Below are positions 1,861-55,021 of a stretch of DNA of 64,000 bases, one piece after another. The position numbers were made by a program, and so were the translations under genes. Source of the DNA: Microbacterium sp. BK668 (GTDB lineage: Bacteria; Actinomycetota; Actinomycetes; Actinomycetales; Microbacteriaceae); NCBI RefSeq assembly GCF_004362195.1, contig NZ_SNWG01000001.1, forward strand, positions 1-64,000, written 5' to 3'. Below the pieces are notes generated by a model. The model was given only the letters and a program-made list of their open reading frames with translations. It searched no databases and was not told the origin of the DNA. Position 1 is the stretch's first letter; every line of letters begins with the position of its first letter.

Positions 1861-4208
1861 TGAGCGTTTCCCACCGCGCAGCCGCGGGCGGTGCCGCCGC
1901 GACGCAGGCGATCGATCTCGAGATCACCGGCATGACGTGCGCGTCCTGCGCCGCGCGCGTCGAGAAGAAGCTCAATCGCCTCGACGGGGTCGAGGCATCC
2001 GTCAACTTCGCCACCGAGAAGGCGCACGTCGTCGCGCCGCGCGGCGTCGACCCGCGGGCCCTCGTCGCCGAGGTCGAGAAGACCGGATACGGTGCACGGG
2101 TGCCCGAGCCGGTCCACGAGCACGCGCACCACGTCGAGCCGGAGCTGGGGTCGCTGCGCCGCCGCCTTCTCGTGGCGATCGCGCTGGCCCTTCCCGTGAT
2201 CCTCCTCGCGATGATCCCCGCTCTCCAGTTCCCGGGGTGGCAGTGGGTCTCGCTCGCGCTCGCGACCCCGGTCGTCACGTGGGCGGGCTGGCCGTTCCAC
2301 CAGGCCGCATGGACGAACCTCCGCCACGGCGCCGTCACGATGGACACCCTGATCTCGGTCGGGGTGACGGCGGCCTACCTGTGGTCGCTCTACGCGCTCT
2401 TCTTCGGCGGCGCGGGGATGATCGGCATGACGCACGGGTTCGAGTGGACGATCTCGCCGACGGATGCCGGCGGCAACCTGTACCTCGAGGTCGCCGCGGG
2501 GGTCACCATGTTCGTGCTGGCCGGCCGCTACTTCGAGGTCCGCTCGAAGCGCCAGGCGGGCGCGGCTCTCCGAGCCCTGCTCGAGCTCGGAGCGAAGGAC
2601 GTCGCGGTGCTCCGTGACGACCTTCTCACCGGCGCGCGCACCGAGGTGCGGATCCCCGTCGAGCAGCTGCGCGTCGGCGACGAGTTCGTCGTGCGGCCGG
2701 GCGAGAAGATCGCCACCGACGGCACCGTCGTGTCGGGGACGTCGGCCGTGGACGCCTCGACCGTGACGGGCGAATCAGTCCCCGTCGAGGTCGTGGAGGG
2801 CGACGGCGTCATCGGCGCCACCGTCAACGTCGGCGGAGTCCTCGTCGTGCGCGCGACCCGCGTCGGCACCGACACGCAGCTGGCGCAGATGGCCAAGCTG
2901 GTCGAGCAGGCGCAGTCCGGCAAGGCCGCCGCGCAGCGGCTGGCCGATCGCATCTCGGCCGTCTTCGTGCCGATCGTCATCGCCATCGCCCTCGCCACGC
3001 TCGTCGTGTGGCTGCTGCTGGGCTACCCGGCCGCCGCCGCCTTCGGCGCCGCCGTCGCGGTTCTCATCATCGCCTGCCCGTGCGCGCTCGGCCTCGCCAC
3101 GCCCATCGCGCTGCTCGTCGGGACCGGCCGCGGCGCGCAGCTCGGCATCCTGATCCGCGGACCCGAGGTGCTGGAGTCGACCCGCGCCGTCGACACCGTC
3201 GTGCTCGACAAGACCGGCACCGTGACCACGGGACGGATGTCGCTCGTCGACGTCGTCGCCGCGCCGGGCGTCGCCCGCGCCGAGGTGCTGCGGCTCGCGG
3301 GAGCCCTCGAGCACGCCTCCGAGCACCCCGTGGCCCGGGCGATCGCGAAAGCCGCTGCGGCGGAGACGGGCGCTCTCCCCCGGGCCGAGTCCTTCCAGAA
3401 CCTCCCCGGCACGGGAGTCTCGGGAATCGTCGAGGGACACGCCGTGGTCGTCGGCCGCGCCGCGCTGCTCGCCGACTGGGCCCTGACCCTCGAGGGACCT
3501 CTCGCCGAGGCATCCGCCCGCTTCCGATCCGAGGGCAGGACGACGGTCGTCGCGGCGTGGGACGGTGAGGTGCGCGGCGTCCTCGCGGTCGCCGATCGCG
3601 TGAAGCCCACGAGCGCCGAGGCGATCCGGCAGCTGCGCGACCTCGGCCTCGCGCCCGTGCTCCTGACGGGCGACAACGAGACCGTCGCGCGACGCATCGC
3701 CGCCGAGGTCGGCATCGAGCGCGTGGTGGCCGAGGTGCTCCCCGCCGACAAGGTCGCCGTCGTCGCGTCGCTCCAGGCCGAGGGCAAGGTCGTCGCGATG
3801 GTCGGCGACGGCGTCAACGACGCGGCCGCCCTCGCGCAGTCCGATCTGGGTCTGGCGATGGGGACGGGGACGGATGCCGCGATCGAGGCCTCCGACCTGA
3901 CCCTCGTGCGCGGAGACCTCCGCAGCACGGCCGACGCGATCCGGCTCTCGCGCGCGACTCTGCGCACGATCAAGGTGAACCTCTTCTGGGCCTTCGCCTA
4001 CAACGTCGCGGCGGTCCCGCTCGCCGCGCTGGGGCTGCTGAACCCCATGATCGCCGGAGCGGCGATGGCGTTCTCGAGCGCCTTCGTCGTCGGCAACAGC
4101 CTGCTGCTGCGCCGGTTCCGCAGCACCGCGGACGGTGCTCCCGCCGGGGCCGTGCCCTCCGACTACCCTCGGCACCGCGCAGACCACCTCGTGAAGGAGG
4201 AGCGATGA
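1860..4208 (+). CDS. copA: copper-exporting P1B-type ATPase
   Basis: 782 aa, usual length for CopA. One N-terminal HMA domain has GMTCASC (Cys27, Cys30) and is followed by eight predicted helices. Key motifs in order are TGES (303-306, phosphatase step), CPC (406-408, transmembrane Cu(I) site), DKTGT with phosphorylated Asp450, EHP (488-490, nucleotide domain) and GDGVND (649-654). The CPC motif and soft-metal HMA domain fit Cu(I)/Ag(I) export across the plasma membrane. It overlaps the chaperone stop by one base, and its own stop overlaps the csoR start (ATGA), so the three genes form one operon under the CsoR-box promoter. Confidence 0.96.
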
Positions 4209-4540
4209 CCCTCGCAGAAACGCCGGCCGCGGCATCCATCGACGCCCCTGACGGGCACGGCCACCACGGCTACATCACCGACAAGGACAGGTACCTCAAC
4301 CGCATGAAGCGGATCGAGGGCCAGGCACGGGGCATCCACAAGATGGTCGAGGAGGAGAAGTACTGCATCGACATCCTCACCCAGATCAGCGCGCTCACGA
4401 GCGCCCTGGAGGCGGTCGCGATCGCCCTTCTCGACGATCACCTCAAGCACTGCGTGCTGGATGCCGCCAAGCTCGGGGGCGCGGAGGCCGACGCCAAGAT
4501 CGCCGAGGCGACGCAGGCGATCGCCCGGCTGGTGCGCTGA
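4205..4540 (+). CDS. csoR: copper-sensing transcriptional repressor CsoR
   Basis: 111 aa, DUF156/CsoR-RcnR family, all-helical DNA-binding repressor. The Cu(I) ligand set Cys54-His79-Cys83 has exactly the spacing known for CsoR (Cys, His 25 residues later, Cys 4 after that), which separates it from formaldehyde- or nickel-sensing members. The N-terminal tail is His-rich (about residues 18-21). A strong GAAGGAGG site lies in the end of copA, and the start overlaps the copA stop as ATGA. When copper binds, the protein should leave the palindrome at 1614-1630. Confidence 0.95.
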
Positions 4541-4559
4541 CCCCGGTCGTTCGATCGAC

Positions 4560-4590
4560 GCGGCGGCTCCCCCGCGGGGGCCGCCGCTTT
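4560..4590 (+). terminator. terminator of the copper operon
   Basis: A GC-only hairpin (GCGGCGG at 4560-4566 with CCGCCGC at 4581-4587, and further C/G pairing inside) is followed by TTT. It lies 20 bp after the csoR stop. Confidence 0.75.
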
Positions 4591-4667
4591 CGCGTCTCGG
4601 GCGTCACCGGGTCATTCGGTCGACATCCGCTCACCGATCGAGCCGAGATGACGCTGATGAGCCGGGG

Positions 4668-5672
4668 TCAGGTGAGCTCGGCGACGTCGGAGACGCCGGC
4701 GTCCACGCGCTGCGCGCGTGAGCGGCGGGAGGCGATCACCGAGTCCGCCGTCAGCAGGATGAGCGCGAGCCAGACGAGGGCGAAGCCGATCCAGCGCTCC
4801 AGCGACATCGGCTCGCCCAGCAGCCACACGCCGATGATGAACTGCAGGATCGGAGCGATGAACTGCAGCATGCCCATGAGCGTCAGCGGGGCGCGCCGGG
4901 CGCCGGCCGCGAAGAGGAGGAGCGGTACGGCCGTCACGACCCCCGCGAGCAGGAGCAGGACGGTGTGCCCCGCGGACTCCTGCCCCATGGACAGCCCGCT
5001 CGTGACGGCGATGACGAGGAGCTGGATGACGGCGACCGGCGTGAGCCACAGCGACTCGAGCGTCAAGCCGCTGATCGCGTCGACCGACGGGCCGATCTGC
5101 TTCTTCACGAGGCCGTAGAAGCCGAACGAGAAGGCGAGCGTGAGCGCGATCCACGGGAAGGCGCCGTACCCGATGACGATGACGAGCACGGCGGCGGCGG
5201 CGATGCCGATCGCGATCCACTGCATGATGCGCAGTCGCTCGCGCAGCACGAGGACGCCCAGCAGCACCGTCACGATCGGGTTGATGAAGTAGCCGAGGCT
5301 CGTCTCGACGACGTGGCCGGTGAGAGTCCCGATGAGGTAGGTCTGCCAGTTCACGTAGATGAGGGCGCCGGCGAGGACCGTCCACCACACCAGGCGCCGA
5401 TTGCGCAGGATCGCGATCAGCTTCGGCCACGTGCGTGTGACGGTCAGCAGGAAGGCGCAGAAGACGAGGGAGAGGATGATGCGCCACGCGACGATCTCGA
5501 ACGGTCCGGTGGGCGCGAGCGCGAGGAAATACAGCGGGAGGAAGCCCCACAGGAGGTAGGCGAAGAACGCGTAGACTCCGCCGACGAAGTGCTCGCGCCC
5601 GGCATCCGTGCCCTTCGCCTGCCCGGCCGCGCCGGCGGGCACGGCGGACGAGGACACAGCGTCGGGGTTCAC
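4668..5672 (-). CDS. rarD: EamA-family transporter RarD
   Basis: 334 aa integral membrane protein with ten predicted helices in two EamA repeats. RarD-specific segments are visible: YAFFAYLLWGFLPLYF near the N-terminus, then NWQTYLIGTLTGHVVETSLG and GYFINPIVTVLLGVL. The family is linked to chloramphenicol sensitivity in other bacteria, but the substrate is unknown. It starts with GTG in the gap after groES and has an unusually long polar N-terminal tail of about 30 residues. It is on the groES strand but separated from it by a terminator. Confidence 0.88.
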   Translation of the reverse strand: MNPDAVSSSAVPAGAAGQAKGTDAGREHFVGGVYAFFAYLLWGFLPLYFLALAPTGPFEIVAWRIILSLVFCAFLLTVTRTWPKLIAILRNRRLVWWTVLAGALIYVNWQTYLIGTLTGHVVETSLGYFINPIVTVLLGVLVLRERLRIMQWIAIGIAAAAVLVIVIGYGAFPWIALTLAFSFGFYGLVKKQIGPSVDAISGLTLESLWLTPVAVIQLLVIAVTSGLSMGQESAGHTVLLLLAGVVTAVPLLLFAAGARRAPLTLMGMLQFIAPILQFIIGVWLLGEPMSLERWIGFALVWLALILLTADSVIASRRSRAQRVDAGVSDVAELT

Positions 5673-5766
5673 CCCCCAAGCCTAGGACCGCTGCCGCGCG
5701 GGCGACGCGGGACGAGGCATCCGCCCCTGCCGTCCATGCCGCGAATCCTGCCATCGGGAAAGGCGG

Positions 5767-5798
5767 AGGGGCCCGGATGCCGAAGCACCCGAGCCCCT
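5767..5798 (-). terminator. groES terminator with UUCG-type loop
   Basis: On the minus strand AGGGGC, a stem with two wobble pairs, a TTCG tetraloop, and GCCCCT form a 14-bp hairpin (5767-5780 with 5785-5798). It lies 17 bp after the groES stop. Confidence 0.7.
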
Positions 5799-5814
5799 CG
5801 CGAATGGTCCGTCG

Positions 5815-8415: not shown

Positions 8416-9506
8416 GCGGCCACCTCTCCGGGCGCCTCGGCGACCTGGATCTCGGTGACGGGCAGGGTCGAGTCCGCGCCGAACTCCAGGGTCGACGGCC
8501 GCCGCCCGGCCGTGATGAGCTCGGAGGCGAGGGCCGCGATCATGGCGCCGTTGTCGGTGCAGAGCGAGAGCGGCGGTATCCGCACGACGACGCCCGCGGC
8601 ATCCGCCCGCTCCAGCGCGACGTCGCGCAGACGGCGGTTCGCGATGACGCCCCCGCCGAGGAGCAGTCGCGGCACACCGTGGTCTCGGCACGCGGCGAGC
8701 GCCTTCGTGACGAGGACGTCGACGACGGCCTCCCGGAAGCTCGCGGCGACGTCGGCGACGGGCACCGGCTCGCCTGCCGTCTGGCGCTGCTCGACCCATC
8801 GAGCGACCGCCGTCTTGAGTCCCGAGAACGAGAAGTCGTAGCGGTGCGCGGCCATGTCGGACGCACGGGAGAGACCGCGGGGGAACGGGATCGCGTCGGG
8901 ATTCCCGGATGCCGCGGCGCGGTCGATCTCGGGACCGCCCGGATACGGCAGCCCGAGCACGCGGGCGACCTTGTCGAAAGCCTCGCCGGCGGCGTCGTCC
9001 ATCGTCTCCCCGAGCAGCTCGACGTCGGCGGTGAGATCGCGGACGAGGAGGAGCGACGTGTGGCCGCCGCTCACGAGGAGAGCGACCGTGGGGAACTCCA
9101 GCGGCGGCGCGTCCGAGTCGAGGATGTCTGCGGCGATGTGACCGACGAGGTGGTTGACGGCGTAGAGCGGCCGGTCCAGCGACACGGCGAGGGCCTTGGC
9201 GGCGCCGACGCCGACCATGAGGGCTCCCGCCAGGCCCGGGCCGGAGGTCACGGCCACGGCGTCGATGTCGGCGAGCGTCACCCCCGCCTCACCGAGTGCC
9301 GCCTCGATCGAGGGCTGCAGCGCCTCGAGGTGCGCGCGCGCGGCGACTTCCGGAACGACGCCGCCATAGCGTGCGTGCTCGTCCATGCTGCTCGCGATGG
9401 TGTTGCTGAGGAGCGTGCGTCCGCGCACGATGCCGATCCCGGTCTCGTCGCAGCTCGTCTCGATCCCGAGCACCAGCGGCTCGTGAGCGTGTGCAAGGTC
9501 GTTCAC
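8412..9506 (-). CDS. tsaD: tRNA N6-adenosine threonylcarbamoyltransferase
   Basis: 364 aa from a GTG that overlaps the rimI stop (GTGA). It transfers threonylcarbamoyl from TC-AMP to A37 of ANN-decoding tRNAs with TsaB and TsaE, both encoded just upstream. Visible signatures are IETSCDETG at about 15-23, [12 protein letters not shown] at about 48-59, [14 protein letters not shown] at about 86-99 and the metal-binding pair His119/His123 (NHLVGH). The open frame continues upstream, but that stretch is rimI read in another frame. Confidence 0.96.
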
Positions 9507-10075
9507 GTGCACGCGCCTCCCTGCCACGCGGCACCGGATTCGGATCGGGCCGCCGGATCCGGGCGGGGCGCGGCATCCGATCCGGATCCGGCGCTGTGCT
9601 CCGGATCCGGCGCCCGGTGAAACGCCCATCCCCGCAGGTCGAGGCGCATCACGATGGCGTCGACATCGTCGGGCTGGTAGTACCGCGGGCGACGGCCGAC
9701 CTCCGCGAAGCCCTCGGATGCGTACAGCGCCTGCGCCGCGGGGTTGTCGGCGCGCACCTCGAGGAAGACCTCCTGCACGCGCCGGGCGGATGCCTCGGCG
9801 AGCAGCGCTTCGAGGATCGCTCGGCCGCGCCCACGGCCTCGGGCCGCCTCGGCGATCGCGATCGTCTGGATGTCGGCATCCGTTCCGCCCTCGGGGGCGC
9901 GCAGGCCCGCGTAGCCGATCACACGGCCCGCCTCTTCGGCCACCAGGTAGTAGGAGTGCGGCGAGGCGAGCTCGGCGCGCATCATGGCGTCCGACCACGC
10001 GTCCGTCGGAAACGACGCCCGCTCCAGCGCCATGATGGCGCGGAGGTCGTCGGGGGTCGCGGGGCGCAGGCTCAT
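9503..10075 (-). CDS. rimI: ribosomal protein S18-alanine N-acetyltransferase-like GNAT protein
   Basis: 190 aa. A GNAT fold fills about residues 1-148. It has the acetyl-CoA loop ([10 protein letters not shown] near residue 78), the [17 protein letters not shown] segment and the RimI-like YY pair (PRYYQP). Its place between tsaB and tsaD is the usual position of rimI in actinobacteria. The last 40 or so residues are a low-complexity Ala/Asp/Pro/Ser tail encoded by repeated CCGGATC-type units and are unlike normal RimI. Start ATG overlaps the tsaB stop. The target protein is inferred from context. Confidence 0.88.
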
Positions 10076-10749
10076 GCGGCGCCTCCCGCCGGGGTGGTGA
10101 CGCGCTTCGGGCCCGCCGACAGCGTCACGTCCGGCGAGCGGAGGTAGAGGGCGTCGGCAGGGCCGATCGTGCGACCGGCGTCGACGGCGCGAGCGGCGGC
10201 AAGGGCGAGCATCGCGGCGCCGATCCGGTCGGTGTCGCGGCGGAGGATGCTCCCTGCCGCCAGGACCGCGTCGATCTCGTCTCGCGGCGAGAGCGCCGGT
10301 CCCCCGATCCGCACGGGGAGCCCGTCGTCGTCGAGGCCCTGGTAGACGGTGTAGGCGAACTCCCGACGGCGCGCGTCGGTGACGATCGCGAACGCGTCGT
10401 CGTCGCTGTCATCGCGTCCGCCGGTGAGCGCGCTGTGCAGCAGCAGCTCGAGCGCGGCGGCGTCGTGGCTCACCACGGGGACGACGGGGACCCCTCGCCC
10501 GAGCGCGAAGGCGCGCGCGGCGGCGATCCCGACGCGGAGGCCCGTGAAGGGCCCCGGACCCATGCCGGCAGCGACATACGTGATGTCGGACGGGTGAGCG
10601 GATGCCTCGGCGAGCGCGCGCTCGACGAGCGATCCGATGACCTCGGCGTGGCCGCGGGGATCGACGCTCTCCGCCTGGGATCGGACGACGCCGTCGGGCT
10701 CGACGACCGCGACGGCGGTGCCGAGGGACGTGTCGATGCCGAGGATCAC
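10072..10749 (-). CDS. tsaB: tRNA threonylcarbamoyladenosine biosynthesis protein TsaB
   Basis: 225 aa, ASKHA fold. It starts [15 protein letters not shown] and has the TsaB signature [20 protein letters not shown] near residue 63. It is the structural partner of TsaD in t6A37 synthesis. The preceding gene tsaE ends 153 bp upstream, a gap in which I see no gene. The stop overlaps the rimI start (ATGA). Confidence 0.95.
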
Positions 10750-10902
10750 GCCCTCCAGGCTAGTCCGACCCGCGCCCTGGGTCGTGGCACGACGGGGGCG
10801 CAGCGACGGAGGCGAGACGCGCAGACAGGGCCATCACGCCGGGCGCGGGCGTGTCGTCACGCTCGCGCGACGACCGGGGATCTCGTCGGCCGCGAGCGGC
10901 GC

Positions 10903-48502: not shown

Positions 48503-48706
48503 AAGGCAGACGCTCGGGGGGCGGACCCACGGCAGGACCTCGAGCGGAATGGCCGCGATCCTCTACGGCACCGGCGCAACCGATCCGTCCTATCACTAGG
48601 CGCGTGAGCAAGAACGGTGCATGCTGGTCGAAGAAGGAATCGACAAGGCTGCCGCCCACCGCGCTCGAGCCCCACCTGCGACCTCGGCAGACGCAAGGAG
48701 GATCAG

Positions 48707-49642
48707 GTGAATCGAGAGTATCCGCGCACGGCGAGCACGAAGCCGGGATCGCTGAGTCGGCGCTCCTTCCTGGCCGGGTCGGCAGCGGCGGCCGGGCTGG
48801 CTGCCGGTGCGCTCGGAAGCCCAGGTGCAGCCAGCGCCGCCCCGAATTACTCGAAGGTGCCCCGCCTGCCGAATGAGCTCACCCGGATGGACACGCAGTT
48901 CACGGGCTCGGGCAACCCGTACGAAGTGATCGACGTCTCGATCTCGGGCGACCGCACCCGGCTGTTCGTGCCGCACGTCTCTCCCCCCAGCTCGACGTCA
49001 TGGGTGGCTGTCCTGTGGTACTACCACGCCAACGGAAGCAGTTACACGGCCGTCAGCTCCGCATTCAAGTACGGAGCGGACCCGCTGGTCGACTATGGCG
49101 CGATCTCCGTCTGCGGTGACAACGGCGGGCCCAACGAGTTCGCCAACGCGAAAGCAGTGACGGCCCACCGTAATGCGATCGCCTATGTGACGGCGCTCTG
49201 GCGCGTCTACTACAGCTTCGGTCGATCCAACTCCGGTGGCGGCGCTCTCATGTGCTGGGCGTTCGGGACCGGCATGGTGCCTCGTCGCCACGGCATGTAT
49301 CTGGCGAGCTCGGTCTACGACATGGAGAGCCTCTACGAGCAGGATCCGACGCGGGTCGGCTATCCCTACGGCTACAGCACGGCTGCGCTGCAGGCCACGA
49401 ACCCGGCTCGGCTCGGACCGTCCGCTTGGACCGGCATGCGGATCCGGTCGTCGTACAGCACGGTCGATGAGCGTGTCCCTCCGCAGGACCACTGTCTGGC
49501 GCTCACGTCTCGCGCTGCGCCTGTCGCCGTCGAGGCCTCGCTGCTCCCTCACGACGGTGGCGGAACCGCCAATGGACACTGGGTGCCCGGAACGATCAAC
49601 CGGGAGATGGTCTCGACGTTCCGACGCTGGGCGAATCTCTAG
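48707..49642 (+). CDS. Tat-exported alpha/beta hydrolase (paralogue B)
   Basis: 311 aa from GTG 48707 with AAGGAGG 5 nt upstream. Tat signal SRRSFLAGSAAAAG. The mature part matches paralogue A (39707-40630) almost throughout: RVYYSFGRSNSGGGALMCWA with Ser176, Asp254 before VPPQ, and HDGGGTANGH with His291. The shared block SFGRSNSGGGALMCWAFG is identical. Catalytic triad seen; substrate unknown. It closes the polysaccharide locus. Confidence 0.8.
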   Translation: MNREYPRTASTKPGSLSRRSFLAGSAAAAGLAAGALGSPGAASAAPNYSKVPRLPNELTRMDTQFTGSGNPYEVIDVSISGDRTRLFVPHVSPPSSTSWVAVLWYYHANGSSYTAVSSAFKYGADPLVDYGAISVCGDNGGPNEFANAKAVTAHRNAIAYVTALWRVYYSFGRSNSGGGALMCWAFGTGMVPRRHGMYLASSVYDMESLYEQDPTRVGYPYGYSTAALQATNPARLGPSAWTGMRIRSSYSTVDERVPPQDHCLALTSRAAPVAVEASLLPHDGGGTANGHWVPGTINREMVSTFRRWANL

Positions 49643-51373: not shown

Positions 51374-52804
51374 TCAGCCGACGACCCGGCGAGTGGGGTC
51401 GAGCTTCTCGCCGATGGCCTCGAGCGCCGAGCGCGCGAGACGCACCCGGTTGTCGTTCTCGCGCACGATCTCGCGCGCGAGGGATGGATGCCTCCGCACG
51501 ATGTCGTCGAGCACCCCGACGGGGATCTCGACGGCCTCGACCTCGGTGAGCGCGACCGCGCGCGAGATCGTCCGGGTCCGCGTGAGGGCCGTGAGGCCCA
51601 CGGCGTCGTCGCGGCGGAGCTCGGTGATCTGGACGAATCCCGAGTCGGTCGGGACGCCCAGCATCACGCGGCCGGCGATGATGAACCGCGTGGAGGTCGG
51701 GATGTCGCCCGGCCGCAGCAGCACCTCGCCCTGCGCGAAGCGCTCGAGCCGCGCCGTCTCGCCCAGCGCCTGCGCCTCGTCGGGGCGCAGGCTCAGCGAC
51801 GGCGCGATCTTGTGGAGGGACTGCAGCAGCCGGTCGCGCGTGTTCCACTCATCGGTGAGATCGCCGTCGAGGTGGAGGCCCGCGCGGCGGGCCGCGTACC
51901 AGAGCCGCGTCATGAAGGCGTCGAGCACGCCCCCCTCGTCACCGGGCGACTGCAGGGGGATCGAGATCCTGTAGGTCGCCGCTCCCACCGATTTGACAGA
52001 CGGCTCGCGGGCATCGGAGACGAGCGGTATCTCGCGGGCGACGTCGACGAGGAGTGCGCGCACACGCGCCGGCGGATCGTCGGTGGAGAACTGCACCTCC
52101 TTCTTCGCGGCGTACGGGTCGCTCGCGCGGGAGAGGTTGACGAACGACCCCTCGGCGAGCTCGGCGGTCGGCATGACGACGATGCCGTTGCCCGTGTCGA
52201 GGTGCACGGCCCGCCAGTTCACCTCGACGATCTGACCGCGCGTGCCGCCCGTCTCGATCCAGTCCCCGAGCTGGAAGGGCGCCTCGAAGATGAGGAAGAG
52301 GCCGGAGACGATCGAACCGACGGCGTTCTGCAGCGCCAGGCCCACGACGATCGACGTGATGCCGAGAGCGGCGAACACGCCCGCGACGTCGGCGTCCCAC
52401 ACCCACCAGAAGACGAGTGCGATGCCGACGATGATGAGGACGAACCGGATGAGGTCGCTGAAGATCGTCGGGAACCGGTCGCGCCACGAGCCCTTCTCGG
52501 CCCGGTGGAACACGAGGTGGTTGATCGCGTTGATCGTCACGACGATGACGAGCAGGCCGAAGATCGTCCAGACCACCTTCGGCCACGTGCCCGAGCCCTC
52601 CCACGCCCCGGGCTGGCTGAGGAGCACGAGCACGCCCGCGACGGGGACGAGGTAGTTGCGGATCATCAGGACGATCGGCGCAGCCCGGCTCCCCCGGCGC
52701 ACCAGCAGGTTAGCCAGCTCGGTGAGGCCGATGAGCGTGAGCGGCAGGCCGATCGAGACGATCACCGCCGGCCAGAACCACGGCTGGCTCGCGATGTCGC
52801 TCAC
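51374..52804 (-). CDS. MscS-type mechanosensitive channel with C-terminal cyclic-nucleotide-binding fold
   Basis: 476 aa. Four predicted helices, the last being the MscS pore helix (ALGITSIVVGLALQNAVGSIVSG), followed by the beta domain (LGDWIETGGTRGQIVEVNWRAVHLDTGNGIVVMPTAELAEG). Residues about 345-455 match a CAP/HCN-type cyclic-nucleotide-binding domain (FAQGEVLLRPGDIPTSTRFIIAGRV). In the phosphate-binding cassette the Glu that contacts the ribose is replaced (Gly403-Leu404), while Arg415 remains. This is the bCNG channel architecture. It lies 36 bp after the cyclase-like gene on the same strand, so the two probably form an operon. Confidence 0.9.
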   Translation of the reverse strand: MSDIASQPWFWPAVIVSIGLPLTLIGLTELANLLVRRGSRAAPIVLMIRNYLVPVAGVLVLLSQPGAWEGSGTWPKVVWTIFGLLVIVVTINAINHLVFHRAEKGSWRDRFPTIFSDLIRFVLIIVGIALVFWWVWDADVAGVFAALGITSIVVGLALQNAVGSIVSGLFLIFEAPFQLGDWIETGGTRGQIVEVNWRAVHLDTGNGIVVMPTAELAEGSFVNLSRASDPYAAKKEVQFSTDDPPARVRALLVDVAREIPLVSDAREPSVKSVGAATYRISIPLQSPGDEGGVLDAFMTRLWYAARRAGLHLDGDLTDEWNTRDRLLQSLHKIAPSLSLRPDEAQALGETARLERFAQGEVLLRPGDIPTSTRFIIAGRVMLGVPTDSGFVQITELRRDDAVGLTALTRTRTISRAVALTEVEAVEIPVGVLDDIVRRHPSLAREIVRENDNRVRLARSALEAIGEKLDPTRRVVG

Positions 52805-52840
52805 CGGTGCGCTCCCGTCCGTGCCGAGATCATGGATGCC

Positions 52841-55021
52841 TCAGGCCTCCCCGACCGGCACGTGCGTCTCGACGCGCCATACCCGCTGCTCGCCGCTCTT
52901 GGTCGACACCTCGCCGGCCGGGGCCACGACGATCGTGTCGGGCAGGCGATCGGCGACGCGCTGGGTGATGTAGATGCCGGCCTCGTCGTAGTCGCCCTGC
53001 ACGCGGTAGGCGAGGCTCACGGCGTCCCCCCACATGTCGTAGACGATGCGCGCCCGGCCGATGAGACCGCTCGTGACCTGACCCGAGTCCAGCCCCGCCC
53101 GAAGACCCAGCTCCACGCCCTGCTGTGCGGAGTACCGCTCCAGGATGGTGCTCAGCTCGATGGCGAATTCCACGGCGCGCCGGGCGTTGTCCACGCGCGG
53201 CGTGCCGAGGCCCACGCTCGCGACATACGACTGCCGCGTCGTCCGCACGCGTTCCACGCCGTAGCGCTCGGCGGCCTCGTCGAAGATCCGGATGAGGTCG
53301 TTGAGCTTCGTCACGGCCTCTTCCGACGACAGCGTCAGGGCGAGCTCCTCGAAGCCGACGATGTCGGCGAAGATCACCGTGACGTCGTCGTTGTCCTGCG
53401 TGATCGCCTCGTCGCCGTGCTTGTAGCGGTCGGCCATCCCCTCGGGCATGAACGAGAGGATGAGGTTCTCGTTCGCCCGCTCCTGCTGCTCGATGAGGTT
53501 GGACTTCGCCTGCAGGCTCCGGCTCATGTCGTTGAAGGCGGTCGCGACGTCGGCGAGCTCGTCGCTGGACCCGGCGTCGACCTGCACGCCCTCCTCGCCC
53601 GCCGCGATCCGCTGCGCCGCTGCCTTGAGCCGGCGCAGGGGCCGGACGAACACCTGAGCGAGCACGAGCGAGAGCAGGCAGACGAAGATGATCATGCCGG
53701 CCGTCGACAGGATGAGGTTGCGGGTGAAGTCCTCCACGGGCGCCATCGCCTCGTCGAAGGTCGCCTGGGCGACGATCGTCCAGCCGAGGTCGCCCACGGC
53801 GAGGGGCGCATAGGCCGTGATGCTCTCGCGTCCGAGGTAATCGCGCTCGATGAGGGCGCCGTCCTCTCCCGACTGCGCCTGACTGAGGGCTTCGCCGAGG
53901 ATCGTCTGCTGCAGCACCGTGTCGCCGTTCTGCACGCTCAGCGCCGCCGCGGCGGGCGACAGCCCCGCCGACACGGCCGACTCGGCGTACGACTCCGGCG
54001 AGGACTTCAGCGCCCGCGAGATCGACCGCATCGTGCCGTCGCGACCCACGAGGTAGGTCTCGCCCGTCTCGCCGAGCCCGTTGAGTGCCCACTCGCCGCC
54101 CACCGTCATGACGTCGTTGATGCGATCGATCGGCAGCTCGATCGCGAGGGCGCCCACGATGCGGTCGTCCACCGCGATGGGCGTCACCGCCCAGCCGGCG
54201 GGGTTGCCCAGGCTCGGGCTGTAGGCGGCGAAGTCGGCGAGCACCACCTCGCCGACGATGTTGCGGCTCATGACCTCGCGGTAGGCGTCGGCGAGATTCG
54301 ACAGACGGTACGGGCCCTCGAGCAGGTTCGCTCCGAGGTCGACGCCCTTGAACGCGGTGTAGACGACGTCGCCCCGCGTGTCGATCAACAGGACGTCCTC
54401 GTACTGCTGCACCTCGGTGAGGGCGCGGAAGTACTCGTGGTACGTGGCGTGGGCGGCCGACCAGGCGCTCCCGTCCCCCGCGTCGTCGACGAGGATCGCA
54501 TCCTCCCAGGCGTCGTAGGGCACCACGTAGCGTGCCTGCAGGTAGCGCGCCGCGTCGTCCTTCGGCGCGAAGGCTGCGCCGTCGACGTCCTCGCCCGTGG
54601 CCTCGGCCAGCTGCGTCGCGAAGACGTCCTCGTAGTAGGCCGCGAGGGCGGCGGATGCCGCGGCATCCAGTTCCGTGCCCTCGAGCGCCGCGAATCCCTC
54701 CGTGAACGCGACCGCCGCCTGCTTGCTGGTCTCGTTCATGGCGCTGAGGCGGACCGAGTTCTCGATCGTGCCGAAGAGCTGCGTGACCTCGCGCGCACGG
54801 TTCTCACGGATCTCGACGAGCTTCTCGGTCGCGATCGCGCGGAGGGCCTGCGTGCCGTTGATGTAGCCGATGACGCCGACCACGATGCTCGACAGGACGC
54901 TCACCGAGAGCAGCATGATCAGCAGGATCGAGTAGATCGAGAGTCCGGCACGCCGGCGAGGCCGCGGTGTGCCCACCCACTCGGTGGTCGCCGCAGCCGG
55001 CCTGCCCAGGTCGGACTCCAC
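52841..55021 (-). CDS. membrane receptor with class III nucleotidyl-cyclase-like domain
   Basis: 726 aa. TM1 at about 29-51, a large outer dCache-like sensor (about 55-430), TM2 at about 436-460, HAMP at about 461-515, then a cyclase homology domain (about 545-715). Cyclase residues kept are Asp553 (FADIVGF), Asp662 (YDMWG) and Arg673. Residues changed are the substrate Lys (Arg593), the second metal Asp (Gln597 in RTTRQSY where active enzymes have KTIGD) and the transition-state Asn (Ser669). Activity is therefore doubtful or altered. The next gene encodes a channel with a cyclic-nucleotide-binding fold. Confidence 0.88.
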   Translation of the reverse strand: MESDLGRPAAATTEWVGTPRPRRRAGLSIYSILLIMLLSVSVLSSIVVGVIGYINGTQALRAIATEKLVEIRENRAREVTQLFGTIENSVRLSAMNETSKQAAVAFTEGFAALEGTELDAAASAALAAYYEDVFATQLAEATGEDVDGAAFAPKDDAARYLQARYVVPYDAWEDAILVDDAGDGSAWSAAHATYHEYFRALTEVQQYEDVLLIDTRGDVVYTAFKGVDLGANLLEGPYRLSNLADAYREVMSRNIVGEVVLADFAAYSPSLGNPAGWAVTPIAVDDRIVGALAIELPIDRINDVMTVGGEWALNGLGETGETYLVGRDGTMRSISRALKSSPESYAESAVSAGLSPAAAALSVQNGDTVLQQTILGEALSQAQSGEDGALIERDYLGRESITAYAPLAVGDLGWTIVAQATFDEAMAPVEDFTRNLILSTAGMIIFVCLLSLVLAQVFVRPLRRLKAAAQRIAAGEEGVQVDAGSSDELADVATAFNDMSRSLQAKSNLIEQQERANENLILSFMPEGMADRYKHGDEAITQDNDDVTVIFADIVGFEELALTLSSEEAVTKLNDLIRIFDEAAERYGVERVRTTRQSYVASVGLGTPRVDNARRAVEFAIELSTILERYSAQQGVELGLRAGLDSGQVTSGLIGRARIVYDMWGDAVSLAYRVQGDYDEAGIYITQRVADRLPDTIVVAPAGEVSTKSGEQRVWRVETHVPVGEA

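Follow-up and report, generated by a model that had tools for sequence, protein, structure and literature searches.

Bacterial cyclic nucleotide-gated (bCNG) channels are reportedly, in work attributed to Caldwell et al. 2010 and Malcolm et al. 2012, members of the MscS superfamily with a C-terminal cyclic nucleotide-binding (CNB) domain. A window of 64,000 nucleotides from Microbacterium sp. BK668 (contig NZ_SNWG01000001.1, positions 1 to 64,000, the whole stretch analysed here) encodes a channel of this build, with a CNB fold after the MscS pore and beta domain, next to a receptor that carries a class III cyclase-homology domain. Unlike bCNG channels, the channel and its relatives never combine the two phosphate-binding cassette residues Glu and Arg (0/203), and the receptor gene always lies beside the channel gene in the genome samples. 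In the antiphage system Pycsar, an active pyrimidine cyclase is paired with a cognate CNB-domain effector. Pycsar is named as a system in PMC9117128. The pair in the window shares the two-gene logic of a cyclase-like protein and a CNB-domain effector and gives weak PADLOC matches, but it lacks the catalytic set, has an extracytoplasmic sensor, and uses an MscS channel as its output. Pycsar-like defence was rejected as an assignment, with the catalytic residues absent and the profile matches weak only.

The receptor domain has the same fold and belongs to the same sequence family as class III cyclases of the Rv1625c type. However, it lacks the catalytic set, and its input is a dCache-HAMP module instead of the six-helix anchor described in PMC4821796. 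The trypanosomatid protein kinase A (PKA) regulatory subunit is similar to the channel in that its CNB fold was kept after the loss of the cyclic-phosphate contacts. In that subunit a Glu took over ribose binding, whereas the channel cassette columns that were counted show no family-wide equivalent (for both points on the subunit, passages of PMC10959531). None of the open-licence literature matches listed (titles and abstract starts) describes a pair of receptor and MscS-CNB channel in which both messenger sites are lost. The individual parts belong to known kinds; the paired occurrence with both messenger sites lost appears new, and the system would be of a new kind if gating by contact were shown.

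We propose, with a probability of roughly 0.55, that the receptor-channel unit works without cyclic nucleotides and that the pseudo-cyclase passes the state of the sensor to the pseudo-CNB domain by contact. If true, this would be a bacterial receptor-gated channel working without a second messenger, in which a messenger pathway's enzyme and effector have remained partners although the chemistry of both is gone.

Architecture of the Receptor-Channel Pair

Both genes lie on the minus strand with the receptor upstream, and 36 base pairs (bp; 52805..52840) separate the receptor stop from the channel start. The receptor gene (52841..55021, 726 amino acids) encodes a first transmembrane helix (TM1), a dCache-type extracytoplasmic sensor (residues ~56-430, 53732..54856), TM2, a HAMP domain (residues 454-505, 53507..53662, PF00672 E-value 5e-13), a linker helix, and a pseudo-cyclase, the class III cyclase-homology domain that lacks the catalytic set (52874..53401, PF00211 E-value 1.5e-31). 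The TM helices were assigned by eye. dCache_1 falls under the cut-off in the Pfam scan, yet it is among the precomputed domains, and the structure model and a chemoreceptor match agree with it. The protein has the double Cache module between two TM helices and the following HAMP domain that define a dCache receptor, and it has both the cyclase-homology fold and the PF00211 match.

The channel gene (51374..52804, 476 amino acids) encodes four N-terminal helices, an MscS pore helix and beta domain, and a C-terminal CNB-fold domain (residues ~340-465, 51410..51787, PF00027 E-value 1.7e-9). In a Foldseek search with the channel model, the CNB domain matches CRP and trypanosome PKA regulatory subunits, and the complete order of MscS pore, beta domain, and CNB fold is present. 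A preliminary description of the locus had placed a dCache-HAMP-cyclase-like receptor 36 bp before an MscS-CNB channel on one strand, and this architecture and adjacency are confirmed.

Pairing Across Genomes

Each protein was used as a query against 398 Microbacteriaceae genomes that had been sampled evenly (channel cut-off E-value ≤ 1e-40). The channel is found in 64 of these genomes and a long receptor match in the same 64, with neither alone in any. In each of the 64, the two genes are neighbours on a single strand, and the distance from one aligned part to the other is -9 to 76 bp. One receptor (G138) is split into two matches, and in 6/64 pairs a stop codon falls inside the aligned span of one gene (the channel in G207 and G380, the receptor in G441, G374, G187, and G489). 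Three further genomes (G358, G464, and G465) have partial receptor matches only, at E-values of 2e-11 to 2e-33.

The pair is also present in a second genus, likely Rhodococcus as judged from the named loci L076 and L110. Among 78 genomes sampled there, 65 contain the channel, the same 65 contain a long receptor match, and an adjacent pair is found in every one (65/65), with at least two pairs in 14 of them. Counted by match, 79 of the 84 channel matches have a receptor within 5-61 bp, and the five exceptions (G839, G877, G878 twice, and G843) are fragments or lie on other contigs. Two genomes of this genus (G866 and G901) match the receptor through the cyclase segment only. Whether the two genes always occur together had been raised as a question in the preliminary description, and they do so in both samples (64/64 and 65/65).

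In a class-level sample of 374 genomes, strong channel matches occur in 27, made up of 7 Microbacteriaceae and 20 in one other genus, and six more genomes match the MscS part only (~1e-21). A scan of GTDB contigs with the channel alignment, in which 80 loci were kept of 154 relatives, placed receptor sequence immediately upstream and in the same orientation in 79/80; the exception (L085) starts 28 bases from a contig edge. In a set of 280 loci with both genes, fetched around such matches with repeats included, the genes are adjacent in 279 (exception L109). Because of this way of collecting, the unbiased adjacency counts are those of the 398- and 78-genome samples. The distribution in Microbacterium is patchy: among the relatives examined, the channel occurs at ≥ 73% identity in six genomes, BK668 included, other relatives carry a channel paralogue at 37-49% identity, and both kinds are found in G011 and G047. 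The pairing supports the view that the two genes form a dedicated, co-inherited receptor-channel unit.

Two loci, L060 (5718-9422) and L109 (5790-9431), have a single open frame over both genes and were considered as fusion proteins. They were rejected as natural fusions because the C-terminal part of the receptor is out of frame there, through frameshifts that are either sequencing errors or real.

Active Site Residues of the Receptor

In the numbering of Rv1625c, the metals are bound by D256 and D300, the substrate by K296 and D365, and the transition state by N372 and R376; these residue roles are given in passages of PMC4174876. The best solved sequence relatives of the receptor domain are the mycobacterial cyclases 7yz9 and 4p2f. 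In an alignment with mycobacterial cyclases, three of these positions are unchanged in the window receptor: D553 matches the first metal Asp, D662 the adenine Asp, and R673 the transition-state Arg. The other three are replaced, with R593 for the adenine Lys, Q597 for the second metal Asp, and S669 for the transition-state Asn. The stretch from Arg593, at the place of K296, to Gln597, at the place of D300, lies at 53231..53245 on the minus strand. Neither the two metal Asp residues (D553 and Q597 in the window) nor the substrate Lys/Asp and transition-state Asn/Arg (R593, D662, S669, and R673) are present as a full set. R593 and Q597 are invariant in 121/121 rows, which comprise 119 orthologues together with the window receptor and its database entry.

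The survey of the wider family started from 283 loci and retained 203 non-redundant pairs after 73 duplicates, 4 short loci, and 3 one-gene loci (L019, L085, and L087, all short or edge loci) were dropped. The complete D-K-D-D-N-R set is found in 0/203 receptors. The second metal position holds N in 80, Q in 32, E in 25, G in 22, S in 18, A in 8, D in 7, R in 5, and K, T, and H in 2 each, and the first metal position D in 155, E in 42, Q in 5, and N in 1. Both metal Asp residues occur together in three receptors (L077, L133, and L361), all three without the Lys. At the adenine-Lys position there are 197 R, 5 H, 1 Q, and no Lys, and at the adenine-Asp position 199 D and 4 A. The Asn position is occupied by N (100), S (72), D (20), T (8), or H (3), and the transition-state Arg position by R (119), Q (73), or other residues (11). 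Ranked by variability, the second-metal column takes place 152 of 176 in an alignment of 35 rows, in which R593 and D662 are invariant. As a positive control, 18 other cyclases of the second genus were aligned with 10 paired receptors (L306 and L298 were unreadable). The 17 readable other cyclases are intact, 16 with DKDDNR and one with DKDNNR, and Asn occupies the second metal position in each of the 9 readable paired receptors.

The cyclase domain of the receptor is predicted from these residues to be catalytically dead. The ratio of nonsynonymous to synonymous substitution rates (dN/dS) of the domain is 0.07-0.23 between the window and five orthologues, indicating purifying selection. This speaks against mere decay, because a decayed domain would drift throughout. 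Since Arg593 and Asp662 are near-constant, the receptor may still bind a nucleotide, and a nucleotide at these residues may serve as a structural or energy-sensing ligand.

The same residues bear on a different explanation, in which the altered active site makes an unusual cyclic or other nucleotide and the altered CNB domain reads this product. Both partners have changed yet remain paired, the nucleobase pocket may persist, weak PycC and PycTIR profile matches exist (E-values 1.1e-8 and 1e-5), and some channels (30/203) have an Arg near its place in the cassette. However, the metal positions are too variable, with 11 residue types at the second and D, E, Q, and N at the first, and conservation would be expected of a functional active site. 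In addition, 84/203 receptors have lost the transition-state Arg, and we consider a re-specialised nucleotide circuit rather unlikely.

CNB Domain of the Channel

The Glu of the phosphate-binding cassette has a role in cyclic-nucleotide binding. The Arg of the cassette is described as the key contact to the cyclic phosphate in passages of PMC2275311. In the window channel, the degenerate cassette covers residues 403-418 (51551..51598, minus strand) and starts with VGLTALTR, which reads IGQTALTR in other Microbacterium copies. Leu404 stands at the place of the Glu, and the aligned place of the Arg holds no Arg, but Arg411 is close by. The Glu position is occupied by Gln in 79, Leu in 76, and Val in 16 of the 203 channels, with other residues in the rest and Glu in one, and in none of the 203 does a Glu go together with the Arg. 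The cassette columns that are kept are Gly403, Leu407, and Arg409, with Thr405 and Thr408 less strictly so, and the remainder varies; the channel has no canonical cyclic-nucleotide-binding cassette. A conserved G-x-T-A-L-T-R motif is located at the canonical cassette start (residues 403-409, window positions 51578-51598), and its Arg409 is present in 193/203.

A control set of 30 rows contains 13 CNB domains that show both Glu and Arg, six with Glu only, four rows that are the channel itself, two (L250 and L251) with neither full set, and five (L225, L227, L230, L238, and L244) that were read on the wrong strand; rows L209-L216 were pattern-matched only. We propose that the CNB domain of the channel probably no longer holds the cyclic phosphate in the usual way.

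A CNB domain without the usual contacts could instead bind an uncharged ligand such as a nucleoside, with the pseudo-cyclase sensing ATP or another nucleotide, and the two proteins cooperating or acting in series. The Foldseek matches of the channel model include the trypanosome PKA regulatory subunits 6hyq, 6hyi, 6h4g, and 6ftf. Such subunits of trypanosomes no longer have the cassette Arg, and their ligands are inosine, guanosine, and adenosine (passages of PMC10959531), and the nucleobase-pocket positions of the receptor are mostly kept. On the other hand, a family-wide Glu of the trypanosome type is lacking among the channel cassette columns counted, the CNB domain evolves fast, and the cassette is mostly variable beyond the five kept columns. 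Such parallel sensing of small molecules is unlikely in our view.

Proposed Mechanism of Signal Transfer

Both partners have lost residues that make or bind cyclic AMP (cAMP), and the receptor therefore probably controls the channel in another way. The dCache sensor would bind an outside signal, and the resulting change would run from TM2 through the HAMP domain and the linker helix to the cyclase-homology domain. A path from sensor to HAMP to output domain is standard in such receptors. The cyclase-homology domain, no longer catalytic, would offer a dimeric surface for signalling, possibly loaded with a nucleotide. By acting on the CNB-fold domain at the C-terminus of the MscS channel, this surface would shift the readiness of the channel to open. 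We infer the protein contact, its route from pseudo-cyclase to CNB domain, and the gating of the pore because the pairing is strict, the messenger chemistry is lost on both sides, and selection acts on the predicted dead domain. The fuller version, in which an outside ligand sensed by the dCache receptor gates the MscS-type pore directly through the contact of pseudo-cyclase and pseudo-CNB domain, with both old cAMP parts working without their chemistry, is put forward tentatively and has somewhat less than an even chance.

The preliminary description had suggested that a cyclic nucleotide passes between the two proteins. This part is not supported, given the second metal Asp in 7/203 receptors, the adenine Lys in 0/203, and the channel Glu with Arg in 0/203. 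The conformational signal, which it had given in brackets, is now the favoured option.

Several observations weigh against transfer by contact. Covariation between the proteins was calculated as mutual information with average-product correction over the 203 pairs, which correspond to an effective number of 126 at 80% identity. Cyclase-CNB column pairs number 7 observed vs. 4.0 expected in the top 30, 12 vs. 13.4 in the top 100, and 24 vs. 40.1 in the top 300. In the same top 300, the extracytoplasmic sensor and the pore, which cannot touch, reach 24 observed vs. 6.3 expected, the cyclase and the pore 26 vs. 8.3, and the HAMP/linker and TM1-4 46 vs. 18.1. The covariation signal is dominated by phylogeny, and the favoured cyclase-CNB contact is not enriched. 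The symmetries of a dimeric receptor and a heptameric MscS-type channel have no obvious match. No true receptor-channel fusion was found, both apparent fusion frames being frameshifts. The adenine-site residues are kept in nearly all receptors (Asp662 in 199/203 and Arg at 593 in 197/203). On the channel side, columns 411-414 contain an Arg close to its usual position in the cassette in 30/203 channels, including that of the window (Arg411), and the CNB domains of another protein from Microbacterium (L239-L243 and L245, six in all) keep the Glu with the Arg absent. Evolution is also more rapid in the CNB domain (dN/dS 0.20-0.50) than in the membrane and beta part of the channel (0.12-0.19). 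The mirror-tree correlation of the two genes is 0.925 over 76 loci with the nearest neighbour shared in 47/76, but this carries little weight because it is expected for any two co-inherited genes.

cAMP Context of the Carriers

No PF00211 protein other than the receptor was found at E-value ≤ 1e-6 in 58/64 carriers, and cyclase classes outside PF00211 were not searched for. The six carriers with extra PF00211 matches are G000, G045, G236, G287, G356, and G407. According to PMC2447327, class III was the only cyclase class found in the actinobacterial genomes available then. The best match to a CRP-like CNB protein in the 64 carriers has an E-value of 9.3e-19, and 27/64 have none at 1e-10. All 15 order-level genomes of other families (15/15) have a cNMP_binding match of 2.7e-19 or better. 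In 23 Microbacterium genomes, no cNMP_binding match is better than 9.3e-19. These matches suggest that cAMP-CRP control may have been lost in Microbacterium. CNB open frames that are 230-300 amino acids long and may encode regulators occur in some carriers, and the second genus does have canonical cyclases. Because 58/64 carriers lack another PF00211 protein and the CRP-like matches are weak, the pair appears to live mostly, but not only, in cells without an evident cAMP circuit.

These genomes also bear on the idea that the receptor works as a C2-like half cyclase and gains activity in a heterodimer with a second class III enzyme. The adenine Asp (199/203) and the transition-state Arg (119/203) are kept and the metal site is lost, as in the mammalian C2 half (passages of PMC4174876). 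However, with no other PF00211 protein at this threshold in 58/64 carriers, no partner was found there, and the usual binding site for a product is missing from the channel. We regard a half cyclase as highly improbable.

The predicted loss of activity has a consequence for annotation. Source records label the relatives of the receptor as adenylate/guanylate cyclase or class 3 adenylate cyclase, and this putatively dead domain is the sole PF00211 protein in 58/64 carriers; such names should be read with caution.

In three of the carriers with extra matches, G236 (C1 ~1179866-1182562), G287 (C12 44319-47015), and G407 (C95 14312-17005), the extra cyclase-type match lies ~2.4 kb from a CNB frame of 232-270 amino acids on the other strand, perhaps forming a separate cyclase-regulator pair. 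The BK668 genome has, outside the window, a second class III cyclase-type domain (G000:C1:2632803-2633309, L218) with Asp at the second metal position.

Genomic Surroundings

Within the window, an open reading frame of 341 amino acids at 48617-49642 on the plus strand starts with what we read as a twin-arginine-like signal and has no Pfam match at E-value ≤ 0.01. As a check of phage origin, the proteins were compared with PHROGs, in which three families of unknown function match the receptor (best E-value 1.4e-10) and none match the channel.

Neighbouring genes were clustered over 67 long loci, and one member of each cluster was identified by Pfam. The pair is near rpoA, rplQ, and truA in 13/67 loci, an ATP-binding cassette (ABC) transporter gene is near it in 35/67, and a gene for a pyridoxal phosphate (PLP)-dependent enzyme in 33/67. 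These surroundings bear on another explanation, that the two genes are co-transcribed neighbours without direct cooperation, for example envelope genes on a shared promoter. Adjacency alone would look alike in that case, and the covariation gave no contact signal. However, the pair stays together at these different genomic places, neither gene is alone at full length in the 398-genome sample, and most channel matches of the second genus (79/84) have the receptor beside them. Mere neighbourhood is improbable, and the pair seems to have moved between genomic places as a unit. The ABC transporter and PLP-enzyme neighbours recur away from the rplQ-truA site, for example at 3919-5802 and 9468-10832 of locus L047.

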